Assembly (NCBI RefSeq): GCF_030064675.1
Contig: NZ_CP116413.1
Location: 3,318,001-3,382,000, forward strand
Source of the DNA: Crossiella sp. CA-258035
GTDB taxonomy: Bacteria; Actinomycetota; Actinomycetes; Mycobacteriales; Pseudonocardiaceae
Direction of reading: 5' to 3'
DNA length: 64,000 bases
A program made the position numbers and the translations under genes. The notes beneath the pieces are model-generated. The model was not told the origin of the DNA, did not search any database, and saw only the letters and a list, made by a program, of their open reading frames with translations. Numbering within the stretch: the stretch's first letter is position 1; every line of letters starts with the position of its first letter. Positions 1-24,932 of this stretch are shown here, piece by piece.

Positions 1-1
1 G

Positions 2-1816
<1,815 letters not shown>

Positions 1817-1838: not shown

Positions 1839-3128
1839 ATGACCGTCACCGCGCACCACCCCGGCACGCACACCGCGGCCACCGACTTCTCGGTGTTCCA
1901 GGACCTCGAGTCCGAGGTGCGCAGCTACTGCCGGAAGTTCCCGATCGTCTTCCACCGGGCCAAGGGCGCCGAGCTGCACGGCGAGGACGGCCGGGTCTTC
2001 ATCGACTTCTTCTGCGGCGCGGGCACCCTGAACTACGGGCACAACAACGAGTTCATCAAACGCCGCCTCACCGAGTACCTGGCCGCCGATGGGATCGTGC
2101 ACGGCCTGGACATGCACACCGTGGCCAAACGCGAGTTCCTGAGCGCGTTCGCCGAGACCGTGCTGCGGCCGCGCGACCTGGACTACAAGATCCAGTTCTG
2201 CGGCCCGACCGGCACCGACGCGGTGGAGGCCGCGCTGAAGCTGGCCCGCAAGGCCACCGGCCGCACCGGCGTGGTCGCCTTCACCGGCGCCTACCACGGC
2301 ATGTCCCGCGGTTCCCTCGCGGTCACCGGCAGCCGACGGGCCCGCCGCGCGGGCGGCATCGGGCCATCGGAGGTCACCTTCGTGCCCTACGAGGACGGTC
2401 CACAAGGGACATTCGACTCGGTCGGCTACCTGGAGCGGATGCTCGCCGACCCGTCCTCCGGGTTCGAGGTGCCTGCCGCGGTGATCGTGGAGCCGATGCA
2501 GATGGAGGGCGGCATCTACCCGGCCTCCCCGGACTGGCTGCGCAGCCTGCGCGCGCTCACCGAGCGGCACGGCATCCTGCTGATCTTCGACGAGATCCAG
2601 GCGGGTTGCGGCCGCACCGGCACCTTCTTCTGCTTCGAGCACGCCGGCGTGGTGCCCGACCTGGTCACCGTGTCCAAGTCCATTGGCGGCTACGGACTTC
2701 CGCTGTCGTTGACCCTGTTCCGCCGCGACCTGGACGTGTGGGAACCGGGCGAGCACACCGGCACCTTCCGCGGCAACCAGCTGGCCTTCGTCGCCGCCAC
2801 CGCGGCCCTGGAGCTGTGGCGGCAGACCAAGTTCCACACCGACCTCGCCGTGGCCGCCCGCCGCCTGGACCGCTTCCGCACCGAACTGACCGAACCGGCG
2901 ATCGCCACCCGCGGCCTCGGCATGGCCCTGGGCATCGACCTCGCCCAGGCCGGTGGCCCGGAGCGCGCGGACCGGGTGCAGCGGCACGCCTTCGAGCACG
3001 GCCTGATCGTGGAGCTGTGCGGCCGTCACGACGAGGTGGTCAAGGTGCTGCCGCCGCTGACCATCGACATCGCCCGGCTGGACCGCGGCCTCGACGTGCT
3101 GCGCGACGCCCTGCACACCACCCGGTGA
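1839..3128 (+). CDS. EctB-like diaminobutyrate--2-oxoglutarate transaminase
   Basis: Class III (fold type I) PLP aminotransferase of 429 residues. It closely resembles EctB/DABA aminotransferases, which convert aspartate semialdehyde plus glutamate into L-2,4-diaminobutyrate. The FDEIQAGCGRTG segment (Asp251 binds the PLP pyridine) and VSKSIGGYGLP (Lys280, Schiff base) are intact. The N-terminal FPIVFHRAKG and CGPTGTDAVEAALK blocks are typical of EctB. The start is ATG after GAGAGGA, 22 bases behind the NRPS stop. No ectA or ectC is nearby, so it supplies a peptide building block rather than ectoine (inference). The ACT protein at 20921 may raise its aspartate-semialdehyde supply. An ornithine or GABA aminotransferase role is less likely. 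Confidence 0.88.
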   Translation: MTVTAHHPGTHTAATDFSVFQDLESEVRSYCRKFPIVFHRAKGAELHGEDGRVFIDFFCGAGTLNYGHNNEFIKRRLTEYLAADGIVHGLDMHTVAKREFLSAFAETVLRPRDLDYKIQFCGPTGTDAVEAALKLARKATGRTGVVAFTGAYHGMSRGSLAVTGSRRARRAGGIGPSEVTFVPYEDGPQGTFDSVGYLERMLADPSSGFEVPAAVIVEPMQMEGGIYPASPDWLRSLRALTERHGILLIFDEIQAGCGRTGTFFCFEHAGVVPDLVTVSKSIGGYGLPLSLTLFRRDLDVWEPGEHTGTFRGNQLAFVAATAALELWRQTKFHTDLAVAARRLDRFRTELTEPAIATRGLGMALGIDLAQAGGPERADRVQRHAFEHGLIVELCGRHDEVVKVLPPLTIDIARLDRGLDVLRDALHTTR

Positions 3129-3138: not shown

Positions 3139-4059
3139 ATGGCCGACCGACGGCACCTGATCTCCATCGACGACCTGTCCGAGGAGGACCTGCGCTGGCT
3201 GGTCCAGCGCGGCGCGGACTATTCCGCCGGACGGTTCGACGGCGCGAAACCGTTGCGGGACCTGGTGGTGGCCGTGCTGTTCCGGCGCACCTCCACCCGC
3301 ACCCGCACCGCCTTCTCCGCAGGCGCGCTGCGCCTGGGCGCCCAGCTGATCACCTACGGACCCGGCGACCTCCAGGAGAACACCGGCGAGTCGGTGGCCG
3401 ACACCGGCGCGGTGCTCTCCGGGATGCTGGACGTCCTGGTCGCCCGCACCGCAGGCCCGGAACGGGAACTGCGCGAGTACGCGGCGCAGCAACGCATGTC
3501 GGTGATCAACGCGATGACCGCGGAGGAACACCCCACCCAGGCCCTCACCGACCTCACCACGATGACCCGCCACTTCGGCCGCGTCGACGGACTGCGCGTG
3601 CTGTACGTGGGGGAGGGCAACAACACCGCCACCGCGCTGTCCCTCGCCCTGACCCGCTTCCCCGGCACCGAGCTGCACCTGCGCACCCCGAACGGCTACG
3701 GCGTCCCGGCGAGCTTCCTGGAACGCGGCGCCATCAGCGCCAAACGCGGCGACGCCCGCATCGAGCAGCGGCACGACCTGGCCGACCTGCCCGAGGTCGA
3801 CGTCGTCTACACCACCCGCTGGCAGACCACCGGCACCAGCAAACCCGACCCGGACTGGCGCACGCGGTTCGCACCGTTCCAAGTGGACAGTCGGCTGATG
3901 GAGTCCTGCCCCGGCGCGGTGTTCATGCACGACCTGCCCGCGCACCGCGGCGAGGAGGTCACCGCCGAGGTGCTCGACGGACCGGTCAGCATCGCCTTCG
4001 CCCAGGCGGAGAACAAGTACCACAGCGCCCGCGCCGTCCTGGAATGGTGCACGGCCTGA
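3139..4059 (+). CDS. carbamoyltransferase of the aspartate/ornithine family
   Basis: Carbamoyltransferase of 306 residues that would move a carbamoyl group from carbamoyl phosphate to an amine. The carbamoyl-phosphate loop STRTR (residues 52-56) and HPTQ (131-134) are intact. The acceptor side departs from ornithine transcarbamylase: HDLPA (264-268) stands where OTCases have HCLP, and a VYTTRWQ segment, closer to aspartate-type enzymes, stands where the ornithine-binding SMG loop should be. It starts 11 bases after the EctB-like gene with a good GGAG site. A plausible acceptor is diaminobutyrate or a peptide containing it, giving a ureido amino acid (inference). A primary arginine-pathway role is unlikely in this context. 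Confidence 0.8.
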   Translation: MADRRHLISIDDLSEEDLRWLVQRGADYSAGRFDGAKPLRDLVVAVLFRRTSTRTRTAFSAGALRLGAQLITYGPGDLQENTGESVADTGAVLSGMLDVLVARTAGPERELREYAAQQRMSVINAMTAEEHPTQALTDLTTMTRHFGRVDGLRVLYVGEGNNTATALSLALTRFPGTELHLRTPNGYGVPASFLERGAISAKRGDARIEQRHDLADLPEVDVVYTTRWQTTGTSKPDPDWRTRFAPFQVDSRLMESCPGAVFMHDLPAHRGEEVTAEVLDGPVSIAFAQAENKYHSARAVLEWCTA

Positions 4060-4079: not shown

Positions 4080-6377
4080 ATGTCCGACAACGTGTTCCTC
4101 CCCACCGGCGACTGGCGGCTGTGGTCCCAGTTCTCCTTGCGCGGACCCGGTTTCCCCGCCGCCGGGGTGCTGCGGCTCGCGCCGGACGGGCTCGCCGCGG
4201 CCGCGGACAAGTTCGACGAGCAGCTCACCGGCGCGGACTGGGCCGCCTTCGAGGAGGAGTTCGGCGCGGCCGCGGTGCGCACCGCGCGGGAGCTCCAGGA
4301 CATCGCGGCCCGGCCGGACTTCCGCGCCGCGGTGGCCTGGCAGAACCGCACCGTGCTGGACACCGGCATCAAGCCCTTCCTGGCCTGGACACCCAGCGCG
4401 GACAACCGCAGCAGCATGCCCCGCCAGCGGGAAGAACTGGTCGCGCACTACTGGCAGCGGTTCTGCGTCAAGAACGACACCATCGGCTTCTTCGGCCCGG
4501 TCGGCTGGGGCCGGTGGGACCTCGGCCAACCCGGCGTGACGATCGACCCGGGCACCGGCCTGATCGCCGAGTCCACCGTGTACTTCTCCAGCTGGGCCAT
4601 CGACACCCTGGCCCGCGTGCTCGGCGAGGACCCCGCACTGCGCCGCTGGATCCCGCCCCGCCGGGTCTCCTTCGTCCGCATCGCCACCGACGCCGTGCAC
4701 CTGCCCGGCCGACCGTCCCAGCCGATCACCCCGGACCAGCGTGAACTCCTGCTGCGCTGCGACGGCACCCGATCCCCGGTCGACCTGGCCGCACAGCTCA
4801 ACCGGCCAGAGGCAGAGGTGCTGGCCGCGATCGAGGACCTGGTACGGCGGCGGTGGCTGGTGTGGCGACTGGAAGTGCCGACCAGCGCACACCCGGAGCA
4901 GCACCTCCGGTCCACAGTGGAGCGAGTGGGCGATCCTGAGGTGCGCGAACGGGCACTGGCCAAGCTGACCGTGCTGGAACAAGCCAAAGCGCGCATCCAC
5001 GACGCCTACGGCGACTCCGCCGCCCTGTCCACCGCGATGGCCGCACTGGAACAGGACTTCGCCACCCTCACCGAGTCCGCGGCCGTGCGCGCCAAGAACA
5101 GCCGCACCGCGCCCTGCCGCTCCCTGGTCTACGCCGACTGCCGACGTTCGGCCACCGCCACCCTCGGCGCCGCGGTCCTGGCCGAGCTCACCCCGCTCGC
5201 CCTGTGCCTGACGGCTGCCCGCTGGCTGACCAACCGCTTCGCCGAGGCGATGACCGGCCGCATCCGCGCCGCACACCGGAAGCTGCTGGACCGGCACGGC
5301 CGGGTCGACCTGGGCGCGCTCTGGTTCGAGTGCCTGCCGGTGCCGCACCCCGACTCCACGGCCGAGATCGACCGCATCCAGGCGGAGCTGCGAGCACGCT
5401 GGGCGCGGATCATCAAAGCCCCCCAGGGTGTCCGCCGGGTCCGACTGTCCGCTGTGGACATCGCGGACCGGGTGCACGCGGAGTTCGGCGAACCTGGGCT
5501 CGCCTGGAACATCGCCCGCTACGTCAGCCCCGACGTGCTGGTCCTGGCCGAGAACGCCGAAGCGGTCGCCCGCGGCGAGTTCGAGCTGGTGCTCGGTGAG
5601 CTGCACGTGGCCATGAACACCGTCGGCGCCTCGCTGTTCGCCATGCAGCACCCGGACATCACCGAGCTGCTCGCCGAGACCACCAGGGACTTCCCCGGCC
5701 CCCGGGTGATGCCCATGCTGCCCAAGGAACAACCGCCGCGCTGGTCCACCCGCAGCCGCCCGGCGCTGGTGCGGCCGGAGGACTACTTCATCGGCATGGT
5801 CGACTACACCGCCGATCCGCACCACCCGCGCGCCCTCAACAGCGCCGACGTCGAGGTGGTCGACTGCGACGGCGAACTGCTGCTGATCCTGCCTGACGGC
5901 ACCGAGTTCCCGCTGCTGGACGTCTTCGGCAACGCCCTCACCAACCGCGTCATGGACCGGTTCTCCCTGCGCCCCAACGCTGATCACAGTCCACGGATCA
6001 CCGTCGACCGAATGATCATCGCGCGGGAGACCTGGCGGATCCCGGCCGCGGACCTGGTTTTCGCCGCGGAGAAGACCGAGTCCCGCCGTTTCGTCCGGGT
6101 CCGGCAGTGGCGCGAGGAGCTGGACCTGCCCCGGTTCGTCTTCGTCACCTCGCCTGCCGAACCCCGGCCGTTCTACGTCGACTTCGACAGCCCGGTCTAC
6201 GTCACCATCCTGGCCAAGGCCGCCCGCCGCCTGGCCCGCACCGACCCGGAGGGCAGGCTCACCATCAGCGAGATGCTGCCCAACCCGGAACAGGCCTGGC
6301 TCACCGACGACCAGGGCAACCGCTACACCTCGGAGCTCCGCTTCGTCGCGGTGGACCAGACCGGTGGTGCGGCATGA
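4080..6377 (+). CDS. LanB-like protein 1: lantibiotic dehydratase aminoacylation domain without elimination domain
   Basis: Protein of 765 residues matching the N-terminal domain of class I lanthipeptide dehydratases, which uses aminoacyl-tRNA (glutamyl-tRNA in true dehydratases) to esterify Ser/Thr. The hallmark RFCVKNDTIGFFGPVGWG is at about residues 127-144, and late blocks such as RPFYVDFDSPVY are present. Full LanB enzymes run to about 1000 residues because a C-terminal elimination domain follows. Here the protein ends without it, as in split thiopeptide glutamyltransferases (TbtB type) and in PEARLs, which add amino acids to a carrier peptide from aminoacyl-tRNA. ATG at 4080 is preferred over 4044 because it follows GAGG and gives the same N-terminal length as the paralogue at 8960. 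It overlaps the next gene by ATGA. Substrate unknown; the neighbouring carrier protein is the obvious candidate. Confidence 0.82.
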   Translation: MSDNVFLPTGDWRLWSQFSLRGPGFPAAGVLRLAPDGLAAAADKFDEQLTGADWAAFEEEFGAAAVRTARELQDIAARPDFRAAVAWQNRTVLDTGIKPFLAWTPSADNRSSMPRQREELVAHYWQRFCVKNDTIGFFGPVGWGRWDLGQPGVTIDPGTGLIAESTVYFSSWAIDTLARVLGEDPALRRWIPPRRVSFVRIATDAVHLPGRPSQPITPDQRELLLRCDGTRSPVDLAAQLNRPEAEVLAAIEDLVRRRWLVWRLEVPTSAHPEQHLRSTVERVGDPEVRERALAKLTVLEQAKARIHDAYGDSAALSTAMAALEQDFATLTESAAVRAKNSRTAPCRSLVYADCRRSATATLGAAVLAELTPLALCLTAARWLTNRFAEAMTGRIRAAHRKLLDRHGRVDLGALWFECLPVPHPDSTAEIDRIQAELRARWARIIKAPQGVRRVRLSAVDIADRVHAEFGEPGLAWNIARYVSPDVLVLAENAEAVARGEFELVLGELHVAMNTVGASLFAMQHPDITELLAETTRDFPGPRVMPMLPKEQPPRWSTRSRPALVRPEDYFIGMVDYTADPHHPRALNSADVEVVDCDGELLLILPDGTEFPLLDVFGNALTNRVMDRFSLRPNADHSPRITVDRMIIARETWRIPAADLVFAAEKTESRRFVRVRQWREELDLPRFVFVTSPAEPRPFYVDFDSPVYVTILAKAARRLARTDPEGRLTISEMLPNPEQAWLTDDQGNRYTSELRFVAVDQTGGAA

Positions 6378-7816
6378 CCGGCTTCGTCGACGACATCCTC
6401 AACCACCCGCCCGAGACCACCGCGATCATCACCCCGGATCACACGGTGTCCTACGGCGAGCTCCGCAACCGGATCGTCCAGTTGGCCCAGTGCCTGGTGT
6501 CCGACGGGGTACGCCCCGAGCAGGTCTGCGCCATCGCCGTGCCCAGATCCGTCGACGCCGTGGTGGCCATGGCCGCGGTGCTGCACGCAGGCGGCGCGTT
6601 CCTCACCCTGGACATCGACCAGCCACCCCAACGCCTGGCCACCCTGCTCGGCTGCGCGACACACCTGCTCACCACCAGCGCCACCGGCCTCCCGTTCAAC
6701 GGCCCCACCACCCTGCTCGACCAGCTCACCCCGGTCACCGCCCAACTTCCCACTGTGCCAACACAATCCCTGGCCTACGTCAGCCACACCTCCGGCTCCA
6801 CCGGCACCCCCAACGCCGTGCTCATCGAACGCCGCGGCCTGGACTCCTACCTGCGGTTTCTGGTCCAGGACTACCACCTCGACCCGGACACGGTCGCCGT
6901 GCAGCTGGCCCCGCTCGGCTACGACGCCTCGATCCGCGACACCTTCGCCCCACTGCTCGCCGGCGGCCGCCTGGTCTTGGCGCCCCGCGCCGACCTGCTG
7001 CGCGCCAACGGGTTCGCCGAGGTCATCCGGCGGTACCAGGTCAACTCCGTGCTGAGCGTGACGCCCTCGTTCCTCACCTTCCTGGCCCAGCACCAAGGAT
7101 CCTTCGACGGGCTCCGGCTGGTGGTCGCCAGCGGCGAGTCCCTGCGCCCGTTCCTCACCGCGGGCGGACGCGAGCTGATCACCGGTGACCTGGTCAACCA
7201 GTACGGCCCCACCGAATGCACCATGACCTCCACCCGGCACCACGTGCCCACGACCCCGGATCTCAACGCCGACCACATCGGCGACCCGATCCACGGCGTC
7301 ACCGCGCACCTGCTCGACGGGCAGGGAAACCCGGTGCCGGACAACGCCATCGGCGAGATCCACCTCGGCGGCATCGGCGTCGCCCGCGGCTACGCGAACC
7401 GCCCCGCGCTGACCGCCGACCGCTTCCGCCCGGACCCCTTCGGCGAACCCGGTTCCCGCCTGTACCGCACCGGCGACCTGGCCCGCCGCACCGGCAACGG
7501 CCTGGAGTACCTGGGCAGGATGGACCGCCAAGTCAAGATCCGCGGCTACCGGGTCGACCCGGCCGAGGTGGAGTCCGCGCTGCTGACCCATCCCGCGGTC
7601 ACCGGAGCCGTGCTCACCGCCGCCACCGACGACCGCGACCGGGTGCACCTGGTCGCCCACCTCACCGGCGACCTGGCGGAAACCACCGACGCCGAACTGC
7701 GCACCCACCTCGGGAAAACCTTGCCGCCACACCTGATGCCGCGCCGGTTCGCCCGCATCGACCACCTGCCCACCACCAGCACCGGCAAGGCCGACCGCAA
7801 GGCCCTGGCCCGATGA
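6374..7816 (+). CDS. stand-alone NRPS adenylation domain
   Basis: Free-standing amino-acid-activating enzyme of 480 residues. It would form an aminoacyl-AMP and load it onto a carrier protein supplied in trans. Core motifs are HTSGSTGTPNAV (Asn where Lys is usual in A3), NQYGPTE, YRTGDL, RQVKIRGYRVDPAEVE and the terminal STGKADRKAL lysine. Pocket residues read D-A-R-S-V-S-Q-M-T by alignment to PheA; I do not recognise this code. No condensation or thiolation domain is fused. The 82-residue carrier protein encoded two genes downstream in the same coupled operon is the likely partner. Start and stop overlap the neighbours by ATGA on both sides. Confidence 0.92.
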   Translation: MTGFVDDILNHPPETTAIITPDHTVSYGELRNRIVQLAQCLVSDGVRPEQVCAIAVPRSVDAVVAMAAVLHAGGAFLTLDIDQPPQRLATLLGCATHLLTTSATGLPFNGPTTLLDQLTPVTAQLPTVPTQSLAYVSHTSGSTGTPNAVLIERRGLDSYLRFLVQDYHLDPDTVAVQLAPLGYDASIRDTFAPLLAGGRLVLAPRADLLRANGFAEVIRRYQVNSVLSVTPSFLTFLAQHQGSFDGLRLVVASGESLRPFLTAGGRELITGDLVNQYGPTECTMTSTRHHVPTTPDLNADHIGDPIHGVTAHLLDGQGNPVPDNAIGEIHLGGIGVARGYANRPALTADRFRPDPFGEPGSRLYRTGDLARRTGNGLEYLGRMDRQVKIRGYRVDPAEVESALLTHPAVTGAVLTAATDDRDRVHLVAHLTGDLAETTDAELRTHLGKTLPPHLMPRRFARIDHLPTTSTGKADRKALAR

Positions 7817-8718
7817 CCGCGCCCACCCTGCGCCTGGGCCGCGCCGACGTCCGCGCCGCCGCCGAGCGAATCGCCGACCACATCAGGCCCACCCCGCTGC
7901 TGCCGTGCCTTCCCGGCCTGCGCCTGAAGGCCGAGCACCAGCAGCGCGGCGGCTCCTTCAAGTTCCGCGGCGCGGCCAACGCCCTGCTCGGCACCCCGGC
8001 CACCGCGGTCGTCACCGGTTCCTCCGGCAACCACGGCATCGCGGTGGCCACCCTCGGCGCCCGCCTCGGCATCCCGGTCACCGTCGTCATGGCCGAAGGA
8101 GCCAGCCAGGCCAAAGCAGCGAAGATCCGCAACCTCGGCGCGACGGTCATCGCCGTGCCCGGGGGAGTGGCCGCTCGCGAGCACCACGCCCGCGACCTGG
8201 CCGCCCGCGCCGGCGCGTTCCTGCTGCCCTCCTCCGACCACGCCCTGGTGGTCGCGGGCGCGGGCACGGTGACCCTGGAGATCCTCGCCGACGCGCCGGA
8301 CACCGGCACCCTCTTCGTGCCCACCGGCGGTGGTGGCCTGCTCGCGGGCGCCTGCCTGGCCGCGCTGGACCACCCGGTCCGGGTGATCGGCGTCGAACCG
8401 GCCGCCTGCCCCCGCTACGCCCGCTCGCTGGCCGCCGGCCACCCGGTCGAGCTCCCACCCTCGGACACCATCGCCGACGGCCTGCGCGGCCAGCGTCCCG
8501 GCGAGGTCCCGTTCCCCATCATCCAGCACCGGGTCGACGACCTGGTCGCGGTGTCCGATGAGGACATCAACCAGGCGCTCGACCTATTGCAGCACAACGG
8601 GGTCAACGCCGAACCCAGCGGGGCGGTCGCCTTCGCGGGCGCACTGCGCGCCGGGTGGCAGGGCAACACCGTCGCGATCGTCTCCGGCGGAAACACCACA
8701 CCGAAAGGACTCCCGTGA
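7813..8718 (+). CDS. threonine dehydratase/serine racemase-like PLP enzyme
   Basis: Fold type II PLP enzyme of 301 residues. The Schiff-base lysine is Lys50 in GGSFKFRGA, the phosphate and substrate loop is SSGNHG, and the glycine-rich PLP phosphate cup is PTGGGGLLAG. These match catabolic threonine dehydratases, serine racemases and hydroxyaspartate ammonia-lyases. The enzyme lacks the C-terminal ACT domains of biosynthetic IlvA. It lies between the lone adenylation domain and the lone carrier protein with ATGA/GTGA overlaps. It may therefore make or modify the amino acid loaded there, by racemisation, alpha,beta-elimination or beta-replacement (inference). Sequence alone does not choose between these. 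Confidence 0.82.
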   Translation: MTAPTLRLGRADVRAAAERIADHIRPTPLLPCLPGLRLKAEHQQRGGSFKFRGAANALLGTPATAVVTGSSGNHGIAVATLGARLGIPVTVVMAEGASQAKAAKIRNLGATVIAVPGGVAAREHHARDLAARAGAFLLPSSDHALVVAGAGTVTLEILADAPDTGTLFVPTGGGGLLAGACLAALDHPVRVIGVEPAACPRYARSLAAGHPVELPPSDTIADGLRGQRPGEVPFPIIQHRVDDLVAVSDEDINQALDLLQHNGVNAEPSGAVAFAGALRAGWQGNTVAIVSGGNTTPKGLP

Positions 8719-8963
8719 CCAGCAACCTCAAGGTAGACGTGCCCGAGCTGCTCGCCGCCATCTACCGCGAAACCCTGGGCGATGCCACCCTGGACGCCGG
8801 CAGCGACTTCTTCGAAGCCGGTGGCGACTCCCTGGCCGCGTTCCAGATCACCGCCCGCATCCAGGAGTCCCTCGGCGTCGAGGTGCCGGTGGCCCTGGTG
8901 TTCGCCTACCCCTCGCCCGCCGACCTGGCGAGTGTGGTGGACCTCGAACCGGCCCAGGGGTGA
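8715..8963 (+). CDS. free-standing peptidyl carrier protein
   Basis: Discrete carrier protein of 82 residues. The phosphopantetheine attachment site is Ser39 in FFEAGGDSLAAF, followed by the usual helix III region (VALVFAYPSPADLASVV). The GTG start at 8715 overlaps the preceding stop (GTGA), and its own stop overlaps the GTG of the second LanB-like gene in the same way, so one carrier sits between two LanB-like enzymes and downstream of a lone adenylation domain. It would hold an aminoacyl thioester made by the 6374 enzyme. Whether it is also the scaffold that the LanB-like proteins act on is the key open question of this cluster. Confidence 0.92.
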   Translation: MTSNLKVDVPELLAAIYRETLGDATLDAGSDFFEAGGDSLAAFQITARIQESLGVEVPVALVFAYPSPADLASVVDLEPAQG

Positions 8964-11194
8964 GGCCGGTGGAGGTGCGCCTGGACCGGACCTGGCGGCT
9001 GTGGGACCAGTTCGCCCTGCGCGGACCGGGTTTCCCCGCCAACGGGGTGCTCCGGCTCGCGCCGGACGGACTCGCCGCGGCCGCGGACAAGTTCGACGAG
9101 CAGCTCACCGGCCCCGACTGGGCCGCCTTCGAGGAGGAGTTCGGCGCGGCCGCGGTCCAGACCGCGCGAGAACTCCAGGACATCGCGGCCCGGCCCGACT
9201 TCCGGGCCGCGGTCGCCTGGCAGAACCGCCCGGTGCTGACCACCGGCATCAAGCCGTTCCTGGCCTGGACCCCCACCGCGGCCGGTCGCACCAGCATGCC
9301 CCGCCAGCGCGAGGAGCTGGTGGCGCACTACTGGCAACGGTTCTGCGTCAAGAACGACACCATCGGCTTCTTCGGCCCGGTCGGGTGGGGCCGCTGGGAC
9401 CTCGGCCAGCCCGACATCGAGGTCGACCCCGGCGACTCCCTGATCGCACAAATCACCGTCTACTTCGCCAGCTGGGCCATCGACACCCTGGCCCGCACCC
9501 TCGAACCCGAGCTGCGCCAGTGGATCGCGCCCCGCCGAGTGCCCTTCGTCCACATCGGACAGACCGAGGTCACCATTCCCGGCCGCCCACCGCAGCCGAT
9601 CACCGCGGACCAGCACCGCCTGCTGACCCAGTGCGACGGCACCCGCTCCGCGCACCACCTGGCCCGCGCAAACCCGGACCTGGACGTCCCCGCCCTGCTG
9701 GCCGAGCTGGTCAGCCGCCGCTGGCTGGTGTGGCGCCTGGAGGTGCCCGCCGACGCGCACCCGGAACGCTGGTTGCGGTCCTGGCTGGCCACCGTCGAGG
9801 ACGAACCCCAGCGCGCCCGCGCCGAAGCAGCGCTGGACCTGCTGGAACAAGGCCGGTCCCAGGTCGCGGCCGCCACCGACGCGGACGCCCTGGCCGAAGC
9901 GCTCACCCGGCTGGAGCAGGACTTCCTCGCCTGCACCGACACCGCCGCGGTCCGGGAGAAGTCCGCTGGCACCGCACCCTGCCGCGCCCTGGTCTACGCC
10001 GACTGCCGCCGCACCGCCACCGCCACCGCCGGCCACCGCGTGCTGGCCGGACTGGCCCCGCTGCCGCTGTTGCTGACCAGTGCGAACTGGCTGACCGCCA
10101 CCCTCGCCGACCGCGTGCTGCACCGCGCCGAGGAGGTCTTCGACCGGCTGGCCGCCACCGGCCCGGTCAACCTGGCCGAGTTCTGGTTCGCCTGCATGCC
10201 CATCCTGCACGGCGCCGCCGTTGAGGACGCCTCCGAGCTGCAACAGGAGTTCCAGCGCCGCTGGCAGACCATCCTCGACCCGGCCAACGCGAGCCGAGTG
10301 TGGAGGTCCACAGAGGACATCGAGCACCAGGTGGAGCTGGCCTTCGGCAACCGGGAACCCGGCTGGACCGCGGCCCGCTACCTCAGTCCCGACATCCTGC
10401 TCACCGGGAACCAGTTCGTCCTCGGCGAACTCCACCTGGCCACGAACAGCCTGGGCTCCTCCTTGTTCGTCAACCAGCACCCCGACCAAGCCGAGCTGCT
10501 CGCACGAACCACCCGCGACCACCCCGGTCCGCGGCTGCTTCCGTTGCTGCCCAAGGAACACCGCTCGCGCCTGTCGGCCAGGACCCGCCAGTCACTGGTC
10601 CGCCCAGAGGACCACTACGTCGCCCTGGTCGACCACACCGCCGACCCGGCCCGCCCGCGAACCCATGCCAGCGCCGACATCCTGGTCGAACGCCACGACA
10701 CCCTGTCGGCTGTGCTGCCCGACGGCACCAGGTTCCCGGTGATCGACGTCTTCGGCCACGTGCTGACCACCCTGGCCATGGACCTGTTCCGCCTCGCCGC
10801 GGATGCGCCGCACACCCCGCGGATCACCATCGACGACCTGGTGGTCGCCAGGGAGACCTGGCGCTTCCCCGCCGCCGAGATCACCGCGGCCGAGGAGAAG
10901 TCCGAACCGCGCCGTTTCGTCCGCCTGCGCCAGTGGCGGGAAACCCACAGCCTGCCGAGGTTCGTCTTCCTCACCTGCCCGACCGAACCCCGCCCGTTCT
11001 ACGTCGACTTCGACAGCCCCGTCTACCTCAACATCCTGGCCAAGGCCATCCGCCGCCTCGCCCGCAAGGACCCGGCCGGCCAGCTCACCGTCACCGAGAT
11101 GCTGCCTGCCCCCGACCAGGCCTGGCTGCCCGACCACAACGGCGAGTCCTACACCGCCGAGCTCCGTTTCGTCGCGGTGGCGGATCCCCAGTAA
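8960..11194 (+). CDS. LanB-like protein 2: paralogue of 4080 gene
   Basis: Protein of 744 residues, very similar to the one at 4080: the first hundred residues differ at only a few positions, and RFCVKNDTIGFFGPVGWG again begins at about residue 127. The GTG at 8960, overlapping the carrier-protein stop, gives the same spacing to the first conserved Trp-Arg-Leu-Trp as in the paralogue, which supports this start over GTG 8969. Like its twin it has only the aminoacyl-tRNA-using half of a class I lanthipeptide dehydratase and no elimination domain. Divergence is greatest in the middle (about residues 210-420), consistent with duplication and specialisation. It is last in the coupled run and is followed by a strong terminator. 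No precursor peptide, LanC or elimination-domain protein was found. Confidence 0.82.
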   Translation: MRPVEVRLDRTWRLWDQFALRGPGFPANGVLRLAPDGLAAAADKFDEQLTGPDWAAFEEEFGAAAVQTARELQDIAARPDFRAAVAWQNRPVLTTGIKPFLAWTPTAAGRTSMPRQREELVAHYWQRFCVKNDTIGFFGPVGWGRWDLGQPDIEVDPGDSLIAQITVYFASWAIDTLARTLEPELRQWIAPRRVPFVHIGQTEVTIPGRPPQPITADQHRLLTQCDGTRSAHHLARANPDLDVPALLAELVSRRWLVWRLEVPADAHPERWLRSWLATVEDEPQRARAEAALDLLEQGRSQVAAATDADALAEALTRLEQDFLACTDTAAVREKSAGTAPCRALVYADCRRTATATAGHRVLAGLAPLPLLLTSANWLTATLADRVLHRAEEVFDRLAATGPVNLAEFWFACMPILHGAAVEDASELQQEFQRRWQTILDPANASRVWRSTEDIEHQVELAFGNREPGWTAARYLSPDILLTGNQFVLGELHLATNSLGSSLFVNQHPDQAELLARTTRDHPGPRLLPLLPKEHRSRLSARTRQSLVRPEDHYVALVDHTADPARPRTHASADILVERHDTLSAVLPDGTRFPVIDVFGHVLTTLAMDLFRLAADAPHTPRITIDDLVVARETWRFPAAEITAAEEKSEPRRFVRLRQWRETHSLPRFVFLTCPTEPRPFYVDFDSPVYLNILAKAIRRLARKDPAGQLTVTEMLPAPDQAWLPDHNGESYTAELRFVAVADPQ

Positions 11195-11254: not shown

Positions 11255-12490
11255 TCACCGCACAACCGCCTCGCGTTCCGCCACCGCCCGCGCCAGACTG
11301 GGCGCGTCCCGCACCGCCGGGCTCACCGTGGCCAGCACCGCCAGCCCGATCATCCACACCGCCAGCGCCCACACCGTGGCCCGCGCCCCGATCCACTCCA
11401 GCGCGAACCCGCCCAGCAACGACCCCAGCGGCACCGCGCCGAACGCGATCATCCCCGCCGCCCCCAGCACCCGCCCCTGGATGTGGTCCGGGGTGACCGC
11501 CAGCTGATAGGCCGAGATCGCCACGTTCCACACCGGGCCCACGAAGCACATCAGCGCGTACACCGCGCCCAGCACATAGGGATTCGGCACCAGCAACACC
11601 ATCGGCACCAACAACCCCCAGGCCCAGTTGGCCCCGACCACCACCACCCGCATGGACAGCCGCCGCTCCAGCGCGGGCGCGGCCAGCGAGCCCAGTACCC
11701 CGCCGACCGCGGCCAGCCCGAACATCACCCCCACCAGCGTCGGCGAGGCCCCGTAGTCCGCGGCGATCACGATCACCACCAGGAACAGCGCGCGGAACAG
11801 GAAGTTGCTGCCCGCCACCAGGAACGTGGTCATCCGCAGGAACGGCTGCCGCCACAACCAGGTGATGCCGGCCGCCAGGTCCACCGGCTGCCGCTTCCGG
11901 GCAGCCTGGAAGTCCTTGCGGATCAACAGCAACGAGGCCAGCGACACCAGGTAGGTCAGCGCGTCGAACAGGAACGGCACCGCCCGCCCCAGCCCGAAGA
12001 GCACCCCGCCCAGCGGCTGGCCCAGCATCGCCGCGCCCCGCTCCCTGGCCTCGTTGCGGGACAGCGCGAAGGTCAGATGACTCGGATGCACCACGTTCGG
12101 CACCGCGGCCGCCGCGGCGATCTTGAACGTCACGGTCAGCACCCCCTCGATGAACCCGACGGCCAGGATGTGCGGCAACGTCAGCACATCCAGCACCAGC
12201 GCCGCGGCCAGCGTGCCGATGGCCAGCGCGCGCAGGACATCGCACCAGATCATCACCCGCTTCCGGTTCCACCGGTCCACCAACGCCCCGGCGGGCACCT
12301 GGAAGATCAGCTGGGGCAGCAGCGCGACGAACCCGCTCAGGCCCGCGTCCACCGGCGACCCGGTCAACGCCAGCACCAGCAGGGGATAGGCCACGCTGGA
12401 GGCGTTCGCGCCGAGGCTGGACACCGCCGAACCCGACCACAGCAACAGGAAGTCCCGATTGCGCCGCAGCGGCGGCACCTCTTCGCTCAT
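11255..12490 (-). CDS. MFS exporter of the peptide cluster
   Basis: Major facilitator transporter of about 411 residues with roughly twelve hydrophobic segments. The cytoplasmic VDRWNRKR loop after the second and third segments matches the MFS signature of drug exporters (MFS_3/enterobactin exporter-like). ATG at 12490 (Met-Ser-Glu-Glu) is chosen because upstream codons in the frame lack a membrane or signal character. It is transcribed towards the LanB-like operon and away from the large NRPS gene, sharing a 165-base divergent promoter region. It is the only transporter inside the cluster and most likely exports the product or gives self-resistance (inference). Confidence 0.88.
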   Translation of the reverse strand: MSEEVPPLRRNRDFLLLWSGSAVSSLGANASSVAYPLLVLALTGSPVDAGLSGFVALLPQLIFQVPAGALVDRWNRKRVMIWCDVLRALAIGTLAAALVLDVLTLPHILAVGFIEGVLTVTFKIAAAAAVPNVVHPSHLTFALSRNEARERGAAMLGQPLGGVLFGLGRAVPFLFDALTYLVSLASLLLIRKDFQAARKRQPVDLAAGITWLWRQPFLRMTTFLVAGSNFLFRALFLVVIVIAADYGASPTLVGVMFGLAAVGGVLGSLAAPALERRLSMRVVVVGANWAWGLLVPMVLLVPNPYVLGAVYALMCFVGPVWNVAISAYQLAVTPDHIQGRVLGAAGMIAFGAVPLGSLLGGFALEWIGARATVWALAVWMIGLAVLATVSPAVRDAPSLARAVAEREAVVR

Positions 12491-12655: not shown

Positions 12656-15600
12656 ATGAGCACAAGCTCGATCTCCCGCGCGGAGCTGTTGCAGCGCAGG
12701 CTGCGCGGCCTCAGCCCGGCCGCACCGGAGCACGGGATCACCCCGGTGCCCAGGGACGGCGCGCTGCCGCTGTCGTTCGCCCAGCGGCGGCTGTGGGTGC
12801 TGGACCAGATCCAGCCCGGCGGCACCGAGTACCTGATGCCGCTGCGGCTGCGGCTGCGCGGCCTGGTCAACGTGGTCGCGCTGCGCGCCGCGCTGGAGCA
12901 GGTCGTGGCCCGCCACGAGATCCTGCGCACCCGTTACTCCACTGTGGACGGTGAGCCGGTGCAGATCATCGACCCGCCGGGCCCGATCACCTGGCGCGAG
13001 GCCGACCTGCGCGGCGCCAACTCCGAGGCCCGGATCGGCAAGCTGATCGACGCCGACGGCCGCCGCCCGATCGACCTGGCCACCGAACACCCGATCCGCG
13101 CCCTGCTGATCCGGCTCACCGCGGACGAGACGATCCTGCTGATCACCACCCACCACATCGCCGCCGACGGCTGGTCGGAGTCGGTGCTGCTGACCGAGCT
13201 GGACCGGCTCTACGCCACCCTCGCCGCCGGCATGCCCTCCCCGCTGCCCCCGGTCCCGGTGCAGTACGCCGACTACGCCGCCTGGCAGCGCGAACAGCTC
13301 ACCGGCGCCCACCTGGCTGACCAGCTCGCGCACTGGCGGAAGACCCTCGCCGGGCTCACCCCGCTGGCCCTGCCGACCGATCGGCCGAGAGGCCCGGTCC
13401 GGGACAGCCGCGGCGCCACCGAGACCTTCACCCTGCCGGCCCGGCTGGTCGAACCGCTGCTGCGCACCGGCCGCGAGGTGGGCGCCACCCCGTTCATGGT
13501 GCTGCTGGCCGCTTTCCAGCTGCTGCTCGGCCGCTACGCCGGAGCGCACGACGTGGTGGTGGGCAGCCCGGTGGCCGGTCGCGACCGCGCCGAGCTCCAG
13601 CACCTGGTCGGCCTGTTCGTCAACACCGTGGTGCTGCGCACCGACCTCTCCGGCGACCCGACCTTCCGCGACCTCGTGGCCAGGGTCCGGGAGACCGCCC
13701 TGGCCGCCTACGCGCACCAGCACACCCCGTTCGAGCGCATCGTGGACGAGCTGGCCCCCGAACGCGACCCGTCCCGCAACCCGCTGTTCCAGGTCACCTT
13801 CCAGCTCACCAGCGGCACCCCCACCGAGCTGACCGGCCTGCGCGCCGAACAGGAACCGGTCGCCTGGAGCGCGGCCAAGTTCGACCTCGGCCTGGCCCTG
13901 GCCGCGCACCCCGACGGCTCGCTGACCGGCCAGCTCGAGTACGCCACCGCGCTGTTCGACGCGAGCACCATCCGCCGGCTGATCGGCCACTTCACCCAGC
14001 TGCTGACCAGCATCGCCGCCCGGCCGGCCGTCCGGGTGAGCGCCCTCGACCTGCTCACCGCACCGGAACGCGCCCAGCTGCTCGGCCCGTGGGCAGGCGC
14101 AGCCAGGACCTTCCCCGCCGCGGAGTGCCTGCACGAGGTGTTCCAGGCCCAGGTCCGCCGCGACCCCGAGGCGACCGCGCTCCGCCACCACGGCCGGCAC
14201 CTCACCTACGCCAGGCTGAACGCACGCGCCAACCGCCTCGCCCACGCCCTGCGCGCCCGCGGCGCCGGACCCGACCACCTGGTCGGCGTCTGCCTGGACC
14301 GGGGCCCGGAGCTGGTGGTCGCCCTGCTCGCCGTGCTCAAGTCCGGCGCGGGCTACCTGCCGCTGGACCCGGCCGCGCCCGCCGACCGGCTGGCCTACCT
14401 GCTCGAGGACGCCGAGGTCTCCCTCGCGGTCACCGACACCGCGCTGCCCGGGGTCACCTGCCTGCCCGTCGACCAGCCCGGCCACCCGGACACCGACCCG
14501 GAAAACCTGGCCGCGCCGGACAACCTCGCCTACGTGATCTACACCTCCGGCTCCACCGGCCGCCCCAAGGGCGTGCAGGTCAGCCACGCCAACGTGGTGC
14601 GCCTGCTGCGCGCCTGCGAACCGGACTTCGGCTTCGGCCCCACCGACGTGTGGACCCTGTTCCACTCCTACGCCTTCGACTTCTCCGTCTGGGAGCTGTG
14701 GGGCGCGCTGCTGCACGGCGGCACCGCCGTGGTGGTGCCCTACGAGGTTTCCCGCTCCCCGCAAGACTTCCTCGACCTGCTGGTCCGCGAACAGGTCACC
14801 GTGCTCAACCAGACCCCCTCCGCCTTCCGCGGCCTGGTCGAGGCGGTCACCCAGGCCGGCCTGCCTGCCGACGCGCTGGCCCTGCGCACCGTGGTCTTCG
14901 GCGGCGAGGCCCTGGACGTGACCGAGTTGGCCCCGTGGTTCGACCGCTTCGGCGACCAGCGGCCCGAGCTGGTCAACATGTACGGGATCACCGAGACCAC
15001 CGTGCACGTCACCTACCGGCCGATCGGCCGGGCGGACCTGGACGGGGAGCTGCGCAGCCCGGTCGGCGGCGCGCTGCGCGACCTCCGGCTGTACGTGCTG
15101 GACGAGGAGCTGAACCCGGTGCCGATCGGGGTGCCCGGCCAGGTCCACGTCTCCGGCCCCGGCCTGGCCCGCGGCTACCTCGGCAAACCCGCGCTCACCG
15201 CCGACCGCTTCGGCCCCGACCCCTACGCCACCACCCCGGGCGCCCGCATGTACCGCACCGGCGACCTGGCCCGCTACCGCGCGGACGGCGACCTGGAGTT
15301 CCTCGGCCGCGCCGACAACCAGGTCAAGATCCGCGGCCACCGCATCGAACCCGGCGAGATCGAGGCGGCCCTGTCCACCCACCCCTCGGTGGACAAGGCC
15401 CTGGTACTGGCGCACCGGTCCCGGCTGGTCGCCTACCTCACCGGCCGACCGGCAGCGGTCACCGAGCTGCGCGAACACCTCGGCCGGACCCTGCCCGCCT
15501 ACATGGTCCCCGCGCTGTTCGTCCCGGTGGCCGACTTCCCGCTCACCGTCAACGGCAAGATCGACCACGCCGCCCTGCCCGACCCGGACACCCACCGCGG

Positions 15601-18600
15601 CCAGGACTCCGCCGAGCGGGTCGCCCCGCGCAACCCGGTGGAACAGGTCATCGCCGAGACCTGGGCCGAGGTGCTCGGCGTGCCCGAGGTCGGTGTGCGG
15701 GACAACTTCTTCACCCTCGGCGGCGACTCCATCCGGGCCATCCGGGTGATCGGCGCGCTCCGCCCGCGCGGCATCGACCTGTCCGTGCAGAACCTGCTGC
15801 TGCACCAGACCGTCGAGGAACTGGCCCGGTTCAACGAAACCCGCGTCCAATCCACTGTGGACAATGCGGAGGAGCAGCGGGTCGACGCCTTCGCCCTGCT
15901 GTCCCCGGCCGATCGGAGCGCGCTGCCCGCCGGGCTGGTCGACGCCTACCCGATGTCCATGGTGCAGGCGGCCATGGTCTACCAGATGATCGCCGACAGC
16001 GAGGAGAGCCCGTACCACAACATCACGCTGCTGCCGATCAACGACGACGGCCCGTTCGACCTGACCGCCCTGCGCCAGGCCGCGGCACTGCTGGCCCGGC
16101 GGCACGAGATCCTGCGCACCTCCTTCGCCCTCAACGGTTTCAGCGAACCCCTCCAGCTGGTGCACCCGGCCGGGACCATCGAGGTCGGCTACCACGACCT
16201 CCGGGACACCGCCGACCCGGACGCCGAGATCCAGCGCTTCATCACCGCCACCCGCGCCACCCCGTTCGACGTCACCAAGGCGCCGATGCTGCGGTTCCAC
16301 GCGCACCAGACCGCCGAGGACCGCTGGACGTTCTCCTTCATCGAATGCCACGCCATCCTGGACGGCTGGAGCCACCACTCCCTGATCACCGAGCTGATGG
16401 CCGACTACCGCGCCCTGCGCGAGGGCCGCGAACCGGCGGAGTCGACCGTCCACAGTGTCCGGTTCGCCGACTACATCGCGCTGGAACGACGCTCCCTCAC
16501 CGAGTCCGGGGACCGCGAGTTCTGGCGGGACCGCCTGAGCCGGTTCGACCGGGTCGAGCTGCCCGAGGGCTGGGCCGCCGATCCGGCACAGGGCGAGACG
16601 GCCTACAAGATCGGGGTGCCGATCGGCGACCTGGAACCCGGCCTGCGCGCGCTGGCCGTGGTGGCCGGGGTCTCGCTCAAGAGCGTGCTGTTCACCGCGC
16701 ACCTCAAGGCCCTCAGCGTGCTCAGCGGATCCCAGCGCTTCCACACCGGCCTGGTGTGCAACGGCCGCCTGGAGACCAGCGGCGGCGAAACCGTGCGCGG
16801 CATGCACCTCAACACCGTGCCGGTCGGCGTCGAGCTGACCGGGAGCACCTGGATCGACCTGGTGCGGCAGGTCTTCGCCGAGGAGGTCGCGGTGTGGCCG
16901 CACCGCCGCTTCCCGCTGCCGGAGATGCAGCGCGAGTGGGGCGGCGGCGCGTCACTGGTGGAGACCGCGTTCACCTACCTGGACTTCCACGTGCTGGACG
17001 CGCGGCGGATCGAGTCGGCCGGCGTGGTCGACGTCAGCCCGAACGAGTTCGCCCTGGACGTGTGGACCTTCCCCGGCGCGCTGTTCCTGGCCGCCCGGCC
17101 GGAGCGGATCAGTCGCGCCAACGGCGAACGCCTGGCCAAGCTGTACCGGCGGATCCTGGAGCTCATGGCCGCCGACCCGCTCGGCGCGGCCAGGAACAAC
17201 GGCCTGGACGAGCAGGAGGCCGCACGACTGCTCTCCTTTGCCAACGGTGAACCCGTGCAGTACCCGGAACTGTGCCTGCACGAGCTGTTCGAGCAGCAGG
17301 TCAGCCGAACCCCGGACGCGGTGGCGCTGCACTGCCCCGACGGGTCCACTGTGGACTATGCCGAGCTCAACGCCCGCGCCAACCGGATCGCCCGCCACCT
17401 CCGTGATCTCGGCGTCGGCCAGGAGTCCCGGGTCGGCATCCTGCTGCGCCGAGGGCCGGACCTGGTGGCCGCGATGCTCGGCGTGCTCAAGGCCGGTGCG
17501 GCCTACCTGCCACTCGACCCCGCCCACCCGGCCCAGCGGCTGGCCGGCCTGCTCGCCGAGACCCGGGCCGAGGTGGTGCTGGCCGAGTCCGCGACCGCGT
17601 CCCTGCTCTCCGGCGACAACACCGTTCTCCTGGACCGCGCCGACCTCACCTCACTGTCCACAGTGGACCTCACTCGGACGGCGACCCCGGACTCGCTCGC
17701 CTACATCATCTACACCTCGGGCTCGACCGGCACGCCCAAGGGCGTCATGATCGAGCACCGCAACCTGGTCAACTACGTGCTCTGGTGCCTTGATGCCTAC
17801 ACACCGTTGCGGGGCAACGGATCGCCGCTGTACTCCTCGGTCGCCTTCGACCTGCCGGTCACCTCGGTGTTCCCCGCGCTGCTCACCGGCCAGCCGGTCA
17901 CCATCACCGCCGACGACGGCACGCCCGGCATCGACGCGCTCGTGGACGCCTTGGAAAACGGCGAGTTCGGCCTGCTCAAACTGACCCCCTCACACCTGGC
18001 GGTGCTCAACCAGTCCCTGTCCCCGGAGGCGATCCGCCGGGCCACCGGGCGGATCATCGCCGGCGGTGAGGAACTGGTCCGGGACATGGTGTCCAGCTGG
18101 GCCCAGCACGCCCCGGACACGGTGGTGGACAACGAGTACGGCCCCACCGAGACCACCGTTGGCTGCTCCTGGCTGGAAGCGACCCCCGACCGGCTCGAAC
18201 CCGGTGTGCTGCCCATCGGCAAGCCCATCGCCAACACCGTGATGTGGGTGCTGGATGCCAACCTGGAACTGGTGCCGGTCGGCGTGGCGGGGGAGCTCTA
18301 CATCGGCGGCGCCCAGCTGGCCCGCGGCTACGTCGAGCGGCCCGAGCTGACCGCGGCCCGGTTCATCCCCGATCCCTTTGCCAGTCAGGCAGGTGCGCGG
18401 CTGTACCGCACCGGCGACCTGGCCCGCTACCGCCCCGACGGGGTGCTGGAGTTCGCCGGCCGGGTCGACCACCAGGTCAAGATCCGCGGCTACCGGATCG
18501 AACTTGGCGAGATCGAGGCCGCGCTGCACCGGCAGGTCCCGCTCCAGGACGTCACCGTGCGCGTGCACACCGCGCCCTCCGGCGACAAGGAACTCATCGC

Positions 18601-19876: not shown

Positions 19877-20862
19877 TGTCGATGGTCCTCGAGGTCGACG
19901 CGCCGACCGGCGTGCTGACCCTCAACCGCGCCAACGCCCTCGCCGTCGAGGAGGTCGCGACCACCCTGCTGTCCATTGAGGACGGTCACATCGACGAGCG
20001 GGGCTGGGTCAAGGCCGCCGGTGAACGCGCGCACGAGCTGCCGATCTCCCTGCGCCGTGCCCTGTCCGCGTACCGCCGGGACTCCGGACCCAGTGGCGCC
20101 ATGGTGATCCGCGGCCTGCCGGTGGACGAGTCACTGGTGCCGGAGACGCCGACGCGCAGCGGTTCGGTGCAGCGCACGGCCACCGTGCCCGCGGCCACCC
20201 TGATGATGGTCACCCACCTGCTCGGCGACGTGATCGCCTTCCGGCCGGAGAAGTCCGGCGCGCTGGTGCACAACGTGGTTCCGGTGCCCGGCAGCGAGGA
20301 CTTCCAGGGCAACGAGGGCTCGGTGCTGCTGTCCTTCCACAACGAGAACGCCTTCCACGACAACCGCCCCGACCACGTGCTGCTGTTGTGCCTGCGCGCC
20401 GACCACGACCGCGAGGCCGGGCTGCGCACCGCGTCCATCCGCCAGGTGCACGACCTGCTCAGCGACCAGAGCCGGGAAGTGTTGTTCCGCAGGGAGTTCG
20501 TCACCGCGCCCCCGCCGTCCTTCGGCCTGCCCGCAGGCGAGACCGAACCGCACGCGGTGCTCACCGGCGCCCCGGACGACCCCGATGTGCTGGTCGACTT
20601 CGCCGCCATCAGCCCGCTCACCGAAGCGGCCCGCACCGCCATGGCCGAGCTGCAGAACCTGTTCGCGGCCAACGCGCTGACCCACTACCTGGTGCCCGGC
20701 GATCTGGCCATTGTGGACAACCGCGTCACCGTGCACGGCCGCACCGGGTTCACCCCGCGCTACGACGGCCAGGACCGCTGGCTGCAACGGACCTTCGCCA
20801 CCCAGGACCTGCGGCGCTCGCGGGCGCACCGGATCGGCGACGGCCACGTGCTGTACGGCTGA
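19876..20862 (+). CDS. Fe(II)/2-oxoglutarate amino acid beta-hydroxylase (AsnO/VioC-like)
   Basis: Non-haem iron dioxygenase of 328 residues from the clavaminate synthase-like/TauD group. The iron ligands are visible as His155-x-Glu157 in FHNENAFH and His287 in RVTVHGRTGF; Arg305 in LQRTF would bind 2-oxoglutarate. The HxE (not HxD) motif followed by AFH is characteristic of the AsnO (asparagine) and VioC (arginine) beta-hydroxylases. It starts one base inside the NRPS stop (TGATG), so it is co-translated with a synthetase whose last module reads as asparagine. 3-Hydroxyasparagine is therefore the best guess for its product; hydroxylation of diaminobutyrate is the main alternative. Confidence 0.85.
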   Translation: MSMVLEVDAPTGVLTLNRANALAVEEVATTLLSIEDGHIDERGWVKAAGERAHELPISLRRALSAYRRDSGPSGAMVIRGLPVDESLVPETPTRSGSVQRTATVPAATLMMVTHLLGDVIAFRPEKSGALVHNVVPVPGSEDFQGNEGSVLLSFHNENAFHDNRPDHVLLLCLRADHDREAGLRTASIRQVHDLLSDQSREVLFRREFVTAPPPSFGLPAGETEPHAVLTGAPDDPDVLVDFAAISPLTEAARTAMAELQNLFAANALTHYLVPGDLAIVDNRVTVHGRTGFTPRYDGQDRWLQRTFATQDLRRSRAHRIGDGHVLYG

Positions 20863-20920
20863 GCATCCCGGGCGCGGACTCCGGCGGCGGAGCCCGCGCC
20901 CGGCCCACCGCGGAGGAACC

Positions 20921-21436: not shown

Positions 21437-21447
21437 TGGAGGTTGCC

Positions 21448-22835: not shown

Positions 22836-22877
22836 GCCGCCAGAGAACGCACCGGAGCCGCCAGGGAACGCACCGGA
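22836..22877. repeat. two-copy 21-base tandem repeat
   Basis: Two adjacent 21-base units, each beginning GCCGCCAG and ending GAACGCACCGGA, differ at a single base. The region is non-coding. Two copies are too few for a CRISPR array, and there is no spacer between them. Confidence 0.85.
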
Positions 22878-23170: not shown

Positions 23171-23234
23171 CGAGCCAGGTTGAGCCCGAGCCGTGGCCGT
23201 GGCCGGGCAGGTGGGCGGCAGGTGGGTTCGCGGG

Positions 23235-24923: not shown

Positions 24924-24932
24924 GAGCTGGGG

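Follow-up and report, generated by a model that had tools for sequence, protein, structure and literature searches.

Five overlapping genes within a nonribosomal peptide synthetase (NRPS) cluster of Crossiella sp. CA-258035 probably serve to join amino acids delivered by tRNA to a building block that is tethered to a small carrier protein (PCP). They encode two LanB-like proteins (LanB1 and LanB2), a stand-alone A domain, a PLP enzyme (PALP) and a stand-alone PCP, and this block is a mix of two peptide-making systems, of which we found no description in this form. As the best explanation, to which we give a probability of about 0.5, we propose that it is a starter-unit cassette, in which loading by the A-PCP pair would be followed by extension through the PEARL-type LanB-like proteins and then by entry into the first synthetase of the cluster, NRPS1.

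The window analyzed here is a stretch of 64,000 nucleotides (bases 3,318,001-3,382,000 of the 9.17-Mb single-contig genome), and the coordinates of genes are given as positions in it. The NRPS cluster, the ends of which are a matter of judgement, spans from about 10 kb upstream of the window to about 22.4 kb inside it. NRPS1, a protein of 3149 residues with three C-A-T modules, starts about 7.6 kb upstream of the window and its 3' part occupies 1..1816 on the plus strand; upstream of it, the minus strand bears genes resembling SbnB and SbnA together with one for MbtH, all named from their sequence and from matches in related clusters. It is followed on the plus strand by two genes that are found in part of the related clusters, one for an EctB-like 2,4-diaminobutyrate aminotransferase (1839..3128; TIGR02407, above cut-off) and one for an ornithine/aspartate carbamoyltransferase-like enzyme (3139..4059). 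The block itself lies on the same strand and comprises LanB1 (4080..6377; 765 residues), the A domain (6374..7816; 480 residues, AMP-binding), PALP (7813..8718; 301 residues, a fold-type-II PLP enzyme of the serine racemase/threonine dehydratase family by its Pfam PALP match), the PCP (8715..8963; 82 residues, PF00550 with E 2.5e-15 and a GGDSL attachment motif) and LanB2 (8960..11194; 744 residues), for which we adopted the GTG start at 8960, the gene caller having favored 8975. All four junctions are four-base overlaps of the ATGA/GTGA type. Thus, coordinates and Pfam matches bear out the initial annotation, which had described LanB-like paralogs of 765 and 744 residues without an elimination domain in one overlapping chain with an A domain, a PLP enzyme and an 82-residue carrier protein. 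Downstream are an MFS-type transporter gene named from its sequence by eye (11255..12490, minus strand), which may act in export, NRPS2 with the Pfam domain order C-A-T-C-A-T-TE (12656..19876, plus strand), and a gene for an Fe(II)/2-oxoglutarate amino acid hydroxylase-like protein (19876..20862, plus strand) that resembles VioC and GntD and scores below the cut-offs of the GntD, VioC and clavaminate synthase models. No tRNA gene of the cluster was detected in the window or in the related loci L007, L008 and L010.

LanB1 matched PF04738 over model positions 1-649 (E 9.9e-58) and LanB2 matched it in two stretches (E 2e-34), the two proteins being 62% identical, and PF14028, the elimination domain, was absent from the Pfam hits of both. 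The genome contains PF14028 in two places (E up to 0.001), both within full LanBs at 3.95 and 5.31 Mb; given that the NRPS cluster is situated at 3.32 Mb, far from both, there is no elimination domain near LanB1 or LanB2. The initial annotation had allowed for an elimination-domain protein lying just outside the window, and there is none. A search of PDB sequences with LanB1 using phmmer recovered no relative (the best hit, with E 0.039, was an unrelated protein). A fold search with an AlphaFold2 model of LanB1 (36 sequences, pLDDT 88.2) did return relatives, namely 11 chains at E up to 0.001, belonging to MibB, MadB, TbtB, GodF and NisB. The top TM-scores were obtained with the split LanB TbtB (6ec7; 0.68/0.65), with the glutamylation domain matching along the length of the model.

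Active-site residues were compared across 148 aligned LanB rows comprising 146 distinct sequences (those of TglB, BhaBC, AmmB and SnaE not being among them), with the two full LanBs of this genome as internal controls. Three LanB rows shorter than 650 residues were dropped, the full LanBs and two fusion proteins were trimmed to 800 residues, and rows were assigned to LanB1-type and LanB2-type groups by BLAST score; rows are sequences rather than independent events, with L044 and L061 being one locus and L117 and L155 another. The roles of the ATP-grasp residues of TglB and of the tRNA-end residues of BhaBC are taken from the accounts in PMC11962472 and PMC11117183. The position equivalent to R803 of TglB is occupied by arginine in 67/68 LanB1-type and 54/56 LanB2-type rows, the other three being gaps, as well as in all 16 other LanB-like proteins from relatives and plasmids and in all six proteins of a Kitasatospora multi-LanB cluster; in both full LanBs of the genome it is a valine. 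Likewise, the histidine of an E-x-H motif, two residues after the second metal-binding glutamate (Glu564 in TglB), is present in 124/124 cassette rows and invariant across all 146 non-control rows, with glycine or serine replacing it in the two full LanBs. Other positions are less telling. The equivalent of Glu801 of TglB is kept in 66/68 LanB1-type rows (one serine, one gap) and 54/56 LanB2-type rows (two gaps), and says little, as it is common to PEARL-like proteins and full LanBs. The aspartate D542 of TglB is reported as PEARL-specific and as not conserved so in the split LanB (PMC11962472, PMC11117183, as far as these accounts go), and its equivalent is aspartate in each row of our alignment, full LanBs included, so that it does not discriminate here. 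At the tRNA-binding face, the arginine and tyrosine that contact the tRNA-CCA end (R208 and Y205 of BhaBC) are kept in 123/124 cassette rows with one gap, the arginine being present in the two full LanBs as well; Gln201 and Arg197 of BhaBC are unmatched in the cassette rows, where mostly leucine and glutamine are found. In LanB1 the conserved residues are D485, E507, H509, E752, R754, R127 and Y124.

Taken together, the PEARL arginine and histidine, the tRNA-end residues and the fold match of the model make PEARL-type chemistry the best reading. By these features LanB1 and LanB2 are very likely PEARL-type amide ligases, predicted to use ATP and aminoacyl-tRNA at a carboxylate. The initial annotation had considered LanB halves using aminoacyl-tRNA either as split glutamyltransferases or as PEARLs: the part concerning tRNA-using halves without a nearby elimination partner stands, and of the two branches the active-site residues favor the PEARL one. 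Loss of the tRNA-binding and active-site residues, which would have spoken against that view, is not what we observed. Its further suggestion that a hydroxyl might be activated, as by glutamylation, is not supported, given that both proteins have the PEARL arginine and histidine at positions held by valine and by glycine or serine in the two true LanBs. A glutamylating dehydratase was accordingly rejected on account of these residues and of the lack of PF14028 nearby.

The same residues bear on two other explanations. One is an ATP-free acyl transfer from aminoacyl-tRNA to the alpha-amine or a hydroxyl of the aminoacyl-S-PCP, in the manner of PacB or as a glutamylation of serine or threonine for later elimination. 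PF04738 dehydratase members do move glutamate from tRNA to hydroxyls, and a PALP of the dehydratase/racemase family adjoins the LanB-like genes; however, the presence of the PEARL arginine and histidine in every ungapped cassette row, their absence from the two true LanBs and the lack of a nearby elimination domain render such a transfer improbable. The other is that ordinary class I lanthipeptide or thiopeptide genes lie in the NRPS cluster by chance, as the family name and the two full LanBs elsewhere in the genome might suggest. Against this are not only the PEARL residues and the missing elimination domain but also the conserved link to A, PCP and NRPS genes, and in a rough test of short ORFs in the gaps between called cluster genes (up to 340 and up to 165 bases) no precursor peptide was seen; the ORFs in these gaps, LanB pieces aside, matched only Crossiella-type loci among 17 related loci. 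We regard this explanation as scarcely credible.

To delineate the distribution of the block, GTDB species genomes were scanned, yielding 128 stretches with a LanB1 relative, the best 80 of which gave 64 loci. Among these best 80 of 128, the genera represented were Streptomyces, Kitasatospora, Streptacidiphilus, Amycolatopsis, Saccharothrix, Actinosynnema, Actinokineospora, Salinispora, Kibdelosporangium, Actinomadura and Crossiella, with the closest LanB1 matches in Crossiella strains (95% and 87% identity). Together with four loci from other relatives, among which one coincides with a scanned locus, and two from plasmids, this set comprised 70 loci, a count that includes both L044 and L061. 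The whole block is found in order in 54 of the 70 (the scanned part being the best 80 of 128), whereas 10 are truncated at contig ends and the remaining 6 represent variants; the pattern of LanB, discrete PCP and A genes, for which the initial annotation had called for a genome survey, is thus a recurrent one. Such conservation across genera indicates that the block is not a chance assembly. At the same time, the LanB1-type protein is infrequent: among 394 genomes sampled from the class, for which the first two candidates per genome were scored, 11 contained a relative at E up to 1e-30, and 16 of the 100 near relatives examined had one at E up to 1e-10 (the window genome being included in both counts). 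The cassette also lies beside NRPS genes on plasmid records of Streptomyces fungicidicus and Streptomyces sp. CL7, and the annotation of these records that we examined names no product for them.

In a quick tree search of 71 chosen LanBs, LanB1 formed one clade of 20 rows with support 100, indicating that the paralogs have been kept apart across genera. LanB2 was not cleanly a single clade (3 changes), and the protein of L117 fell in the LanB1 group by BLAST score and in the LanB2 group by tree. Among the variants, three from Amycolatopsis have LanB1, PALP and LanB2 together, with the A-PCP pair beside NRPS modules elsewhere on the contig. In all three, at a distance of more than 20 kb from LanB1-PALP-LanB2, the A and PCP genes have stayed together, which implies that the PCP belongs to the unit, as had been supposed from the single locus. 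A further variant, from Actinomadura, has only A-PCP-LanB, its LanB grouping with LanB2 in the tree; this draft genome contains a single LanB of cassette level (56%, the next being 35%), and its PALP-family matches are no closer than 40-44% identity. LanB1 and PALP are hence missing together in this one case, and the A-PCP pair with one PEARL is the smallest form seen. The remaining variants are L104, with all five genes and an inverted partial copy, and L090, with a LanB alone on a short contig.

The stand-alone A domain is typified by a strongly conserved code, D-A-R-S-x-S-Q-M-T, seen in 60 of 62 rows (the 62 comprising 60 distinct sequences), in which only position 299 varies (Ala 32, Val 27, Cys 1); the two rows with a different code are one sequence from the Actinomadura locus. 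The protein of the window reads D-A-R-S-V-S-Q-M-T-K, the last lysine being assumed. The A codes of the NRPS modules, read from alignments with the first A domain of NRPS2 left out, vary between clusters, unlike this near-invariant code. Arg239, which we take to be a mark of A domains accepting dicarboxylic amino acids through the side-chain carboxyl, is present in all 62 rows; in the open-licence literature searched for the known codes, we found nothing that confirmed this meaning. In the other A-domain rows near LanBs, Arg239 occurs in only 3 of 38 (L054, L127 and one module of L128; 2 rows are gapped), a scarcity that weighs against an acidic substrate, and stand-alone A domains without it include those of L056, L059, L060 and L168. 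L127, a Streptomyces plasmid, carries a distant PEARL-like gene in a row with genes for glutamate mutase subunits, an ACP and an A domain in which Arg239 is likewise aligned (24% identity); glutamate mutase gives rise to 3-methylaspartate. There is precedent for condensation via a side-chain carboxyl in the description of ACV synthetase (PMC13338154), for beta-methylaspartate condensed through its beta-carboxyl in the account of another NRPS (PMC2174460), and for side-chain tethering of aspartate in two A domains of a curated set (PMC13126170). We would put the possibility that the stand-alone A domain takes an acidic residue with a free carboxylate at a little short of even, and tethering of that residue to the PCP by its side chain appears doubtful.

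The nearest solved sequences of PALP are serine racemases and threonine dehydratases, and the PLP lysine is seen in 58/59 rows (one gap) and SSGNH in 59/59. A serine-loop feature might point to an aspartate racemase, but this assignment was not adopted, the alignment being not decisive. With regard to the carrier protein, an A domain and a PCP with its attachment serine, together with an NRPS that starts with a C domain, have the makings of a loading module acting in trans. Given that NRPS1 begins with a C domain, a donor in trans is needed, and the stand-alone PCP is the obvious one. In a quick tree search of 50 C domains from 18 chosen loci and the window's cluster, the first C domain of NRPS1, which lies outside the window, fell into a clade of 15 (support 100), each member of which is at the N-terminus of its protein and which spans clusters whose later modules differ; the last C domains formed another clade of 9 rows (support 100). 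Outside the clade of 15 are the first C domain of the Amycolatopsis locus L152 and the Actinomadura C domains, first domains included, an observation that counts against the starter-unit explanation.

Under the starter-unit model, the stand-alone A domain would activate one amino acid, probably dicarboxylic, and load it on the 82-residue PCP with one carboxylate remaining free; if R239 acts as in side-chain-activating A domains, the side-chain carboxyl would be thioesterified and the alpha-carboxylate left free. LanB1 and LanB2 would each phosphorylate the free carboxylate with ATP and then couple the amine of an aminoacyl-tRNA, so that up to two tRNA-derived residues could grow opposite to the assembly-line direction. 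PALP would supply a residue, or racemize or modify one, in step with LanB1. Finally, the first C domain of NRPS1, a synthetase with no loading module of its own, would receive the unit from the PCP. We infer the chemistry of all four steps, while gene content, conservation, residues, C motifs, the A code and the relatedness of the first C domains were computed. That the PEARLs act jointly with the A-PCP pair to make a starter unit seems likely. The more specific proposal, put forward in the initial annotation, that the PCP replaces the ribosomal scaffold can be held only tentatively: here an acidic residue would be tethered to the PCP through one carboxyl, the two PEARLs would assemble a dipeptidyl branch of tRNA-derived residues on its second carboxyl, and the thioester would then enter the NRPS.

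A different timing has to be weighed, in which the PEARLs would act late, once the NRPS product has been released, on its free C-terminal or side-chain carboxylate, with the A-PCP pair being an ordinary loading module and PALP making a precursor. PEARLs are described as extending peptide C-termini (PMC11962472), and the account of SnaE leaves open whether its substrate is bound or free (PMC11212132); the separation of the A-PCP pair from LanB1-PALP-LanB2 in Amycolatopsis also fits ligases working on a released peptide, and to that extent goes against the starter-unit model. However, the ligases are interleaved with A and PCP in an operon-like block in 54 of the 70 loci, Actinomadura retains only A, PCP and LanB together, and the A code is near-invariant while the NRPS modules differ. 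On this evidence we consider late action unlikely.

Among known systems, the closest is SnaE, a PEARL in the NRPS pathway of threopeptin (sna cluster of Stackebrandtia nassauensis, 2024; PMC11212132). As described there, it too is a LanB-like protein in an NRPS cluster with no precursor peptide, proposed to form an amide at a carboxylate with ATP and aminoacyl-tRNA, against the assembly-line direction; it differs in being a single enzyme that works after a ureido-forming C domain (EHHXXHDG) has freed the carboxylate, in a cluster described without a stand-alone A, PCP or PALP. The cassette, in contrast, has two ligases, a dedicated A-PCP pair and PALP, and no ureido C motif was seen in it: EHHXXHDG was found in 0 of 82 C motifs of cassette loci versus 2 of 25 in other LanB loci, the 82 comprising C domains with an HH motif, some of them from loci entered twice or from NRPS genes truncated at the edge of a locus. 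None of the five C domains of the window's cluster has it, the fifth reading ECHAILDG. Ureido chain reversal as in sna was therefore rejected for the cassette loci, and the SnaE logic of freeing a carboxylate by chain reversal is, to judge from these motifs, probably not used in cassette clusters. What is known, then, is an NRPS-linked PEARL, and what is new is a cassette with two ligases, its own A-PCP pair and PALP. TglB, BhaBC and AmmB share with LanB1 and LanB2 the family and the ATP-grasp and tRNA-end residues as reported, and differ in that the PEARLs described extend a ribosomal scaffold peptide (PMC11962472, PMC11117183), whereas the rough test of short ORFs showed none here and the cassette block includes a PCP. 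The glutamylation domains of TbtB, NisB and MibB resemble the LanB1 model in fold, whereas these dehydratases work with an elimination domain, none of which is near the cassette. PacB, an aminoacyl-tRNA enzyme that works with a carrier-protein NRPS, belongs to its own family rather than to LanB/PEARL, and like the livipeptin enzyme it transfers an acyl group to an amine without ATP. TbtB further lacks the PEARL arginine in the published comparison (PMC11117183). The livipeptin enzyme likewise pairs aminoacyl-tRNA with a carrier-protein NRPS, of the C-minus kind, and is reported as a member of the leucyl/phenylalanyl-tRNA transferase family, not of LanB/PEARL (PMC10548850). In the open-licence literature, most subscription papers being outside its scope, we found no description of the five-gene layout, in keeping with the earlier impression that no pathway of this kind had been described.

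LanB-annotated enzymes occur in about two thousand NRPS/PKS clusters, one of which is characterized in the report on SnaE (PMC11212132). The cassette, which recurs in Streptomyces, Amycolatopsis, Salinispora, Saccharothrix, Actinokineospora and others, brings along both an A domain and a carrier protein, so that direct loading in vitro can reveal what the ligases act on. If the PCP does act as the scaffold, a single residue would be extended both by charged tRNAs and by a thioester assembly line, in two directions and with no need of the ureido chain reversal that is the route known so far. The starter-unit model, if true, would describe a second route by which a PEARL is supplied with a free carboxylate, and would make predictions possible for a family of clusters as yet unread.

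A run of adjacent LanB-like genes was detected on a Kitasatospora plasmid (locus L129, NZ_CP108290.1 761591-793441; run at 14374-31851 of that locus). Three of these genes carry the annotation lantibiotic dehydratase, and BLAST searches identified at least three further LanB-like genes among the hypothetical ones. Their alignment revealed that the PEARL Arg and His, i.e. the equivalent of TglB R803 and the His of E-x-H, are retained in all six aligned LanB-like proteins. On a Streptomyces plasmid (L127, NZ_CP108679.1, 10167-19848), a PEARL-like LanB occurs in a run with glutamate mutase subunits, a SnoaL-like protein, an ACP, an A domain, an ATP-grasp ligase, a GTP cyclohydrolase-like gene and a stand-alone C domain.

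In Streptomyces (L125, 12635-19756; L126, 12336-19743), the five-gene cassette of the window adjoins a LanM-like protein combining DUF4135 and LANC_like, a small ORF, a peptidase E and a phosphopantetheinyl transferase. At L104 (15313-18987), an inverted partial copy of PCP/LanB2 lies within the cassette, reflecting either an assembly artefact or a rearrangement. In the window itself, a 171-residue gene adjoining the NRPS (20921-21436) bears a weak resemblance, short of the curated cut-offs, to the C-terminal portion of aspartate kinase. As judged by eye, a regulator-like gene pair lies upstream of the window (window coordinates -11441 to -10258), with look-alikes in the clusters of S. griseofuscus, S. 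seoulensis and Amycolatopsis.

A different LanB context was noted at two loci (L059, 6941-14286; L168, 7147-14571), where a single run holds SbnB-like, SbnA-like and LanB genes, one unnamed gene, a short ORF resembling a carrier protein, and an A domain; this arrangement suggests diaminopropionate together with a PEARL-like enzyme. Elsewhere, a C-A-T unit is fused to a LanB-like domain in a single 1863-residue protein (L052, 9336-14927). Ureido-type C motifs (EHHxxHDG) were also observed close to single LanB genes (L166, 12550-19227; L057, 14894-19000); these two loci are possibly further clusters of the SnaE type, named for the PEARL of the threopeptin NRPS cluster.
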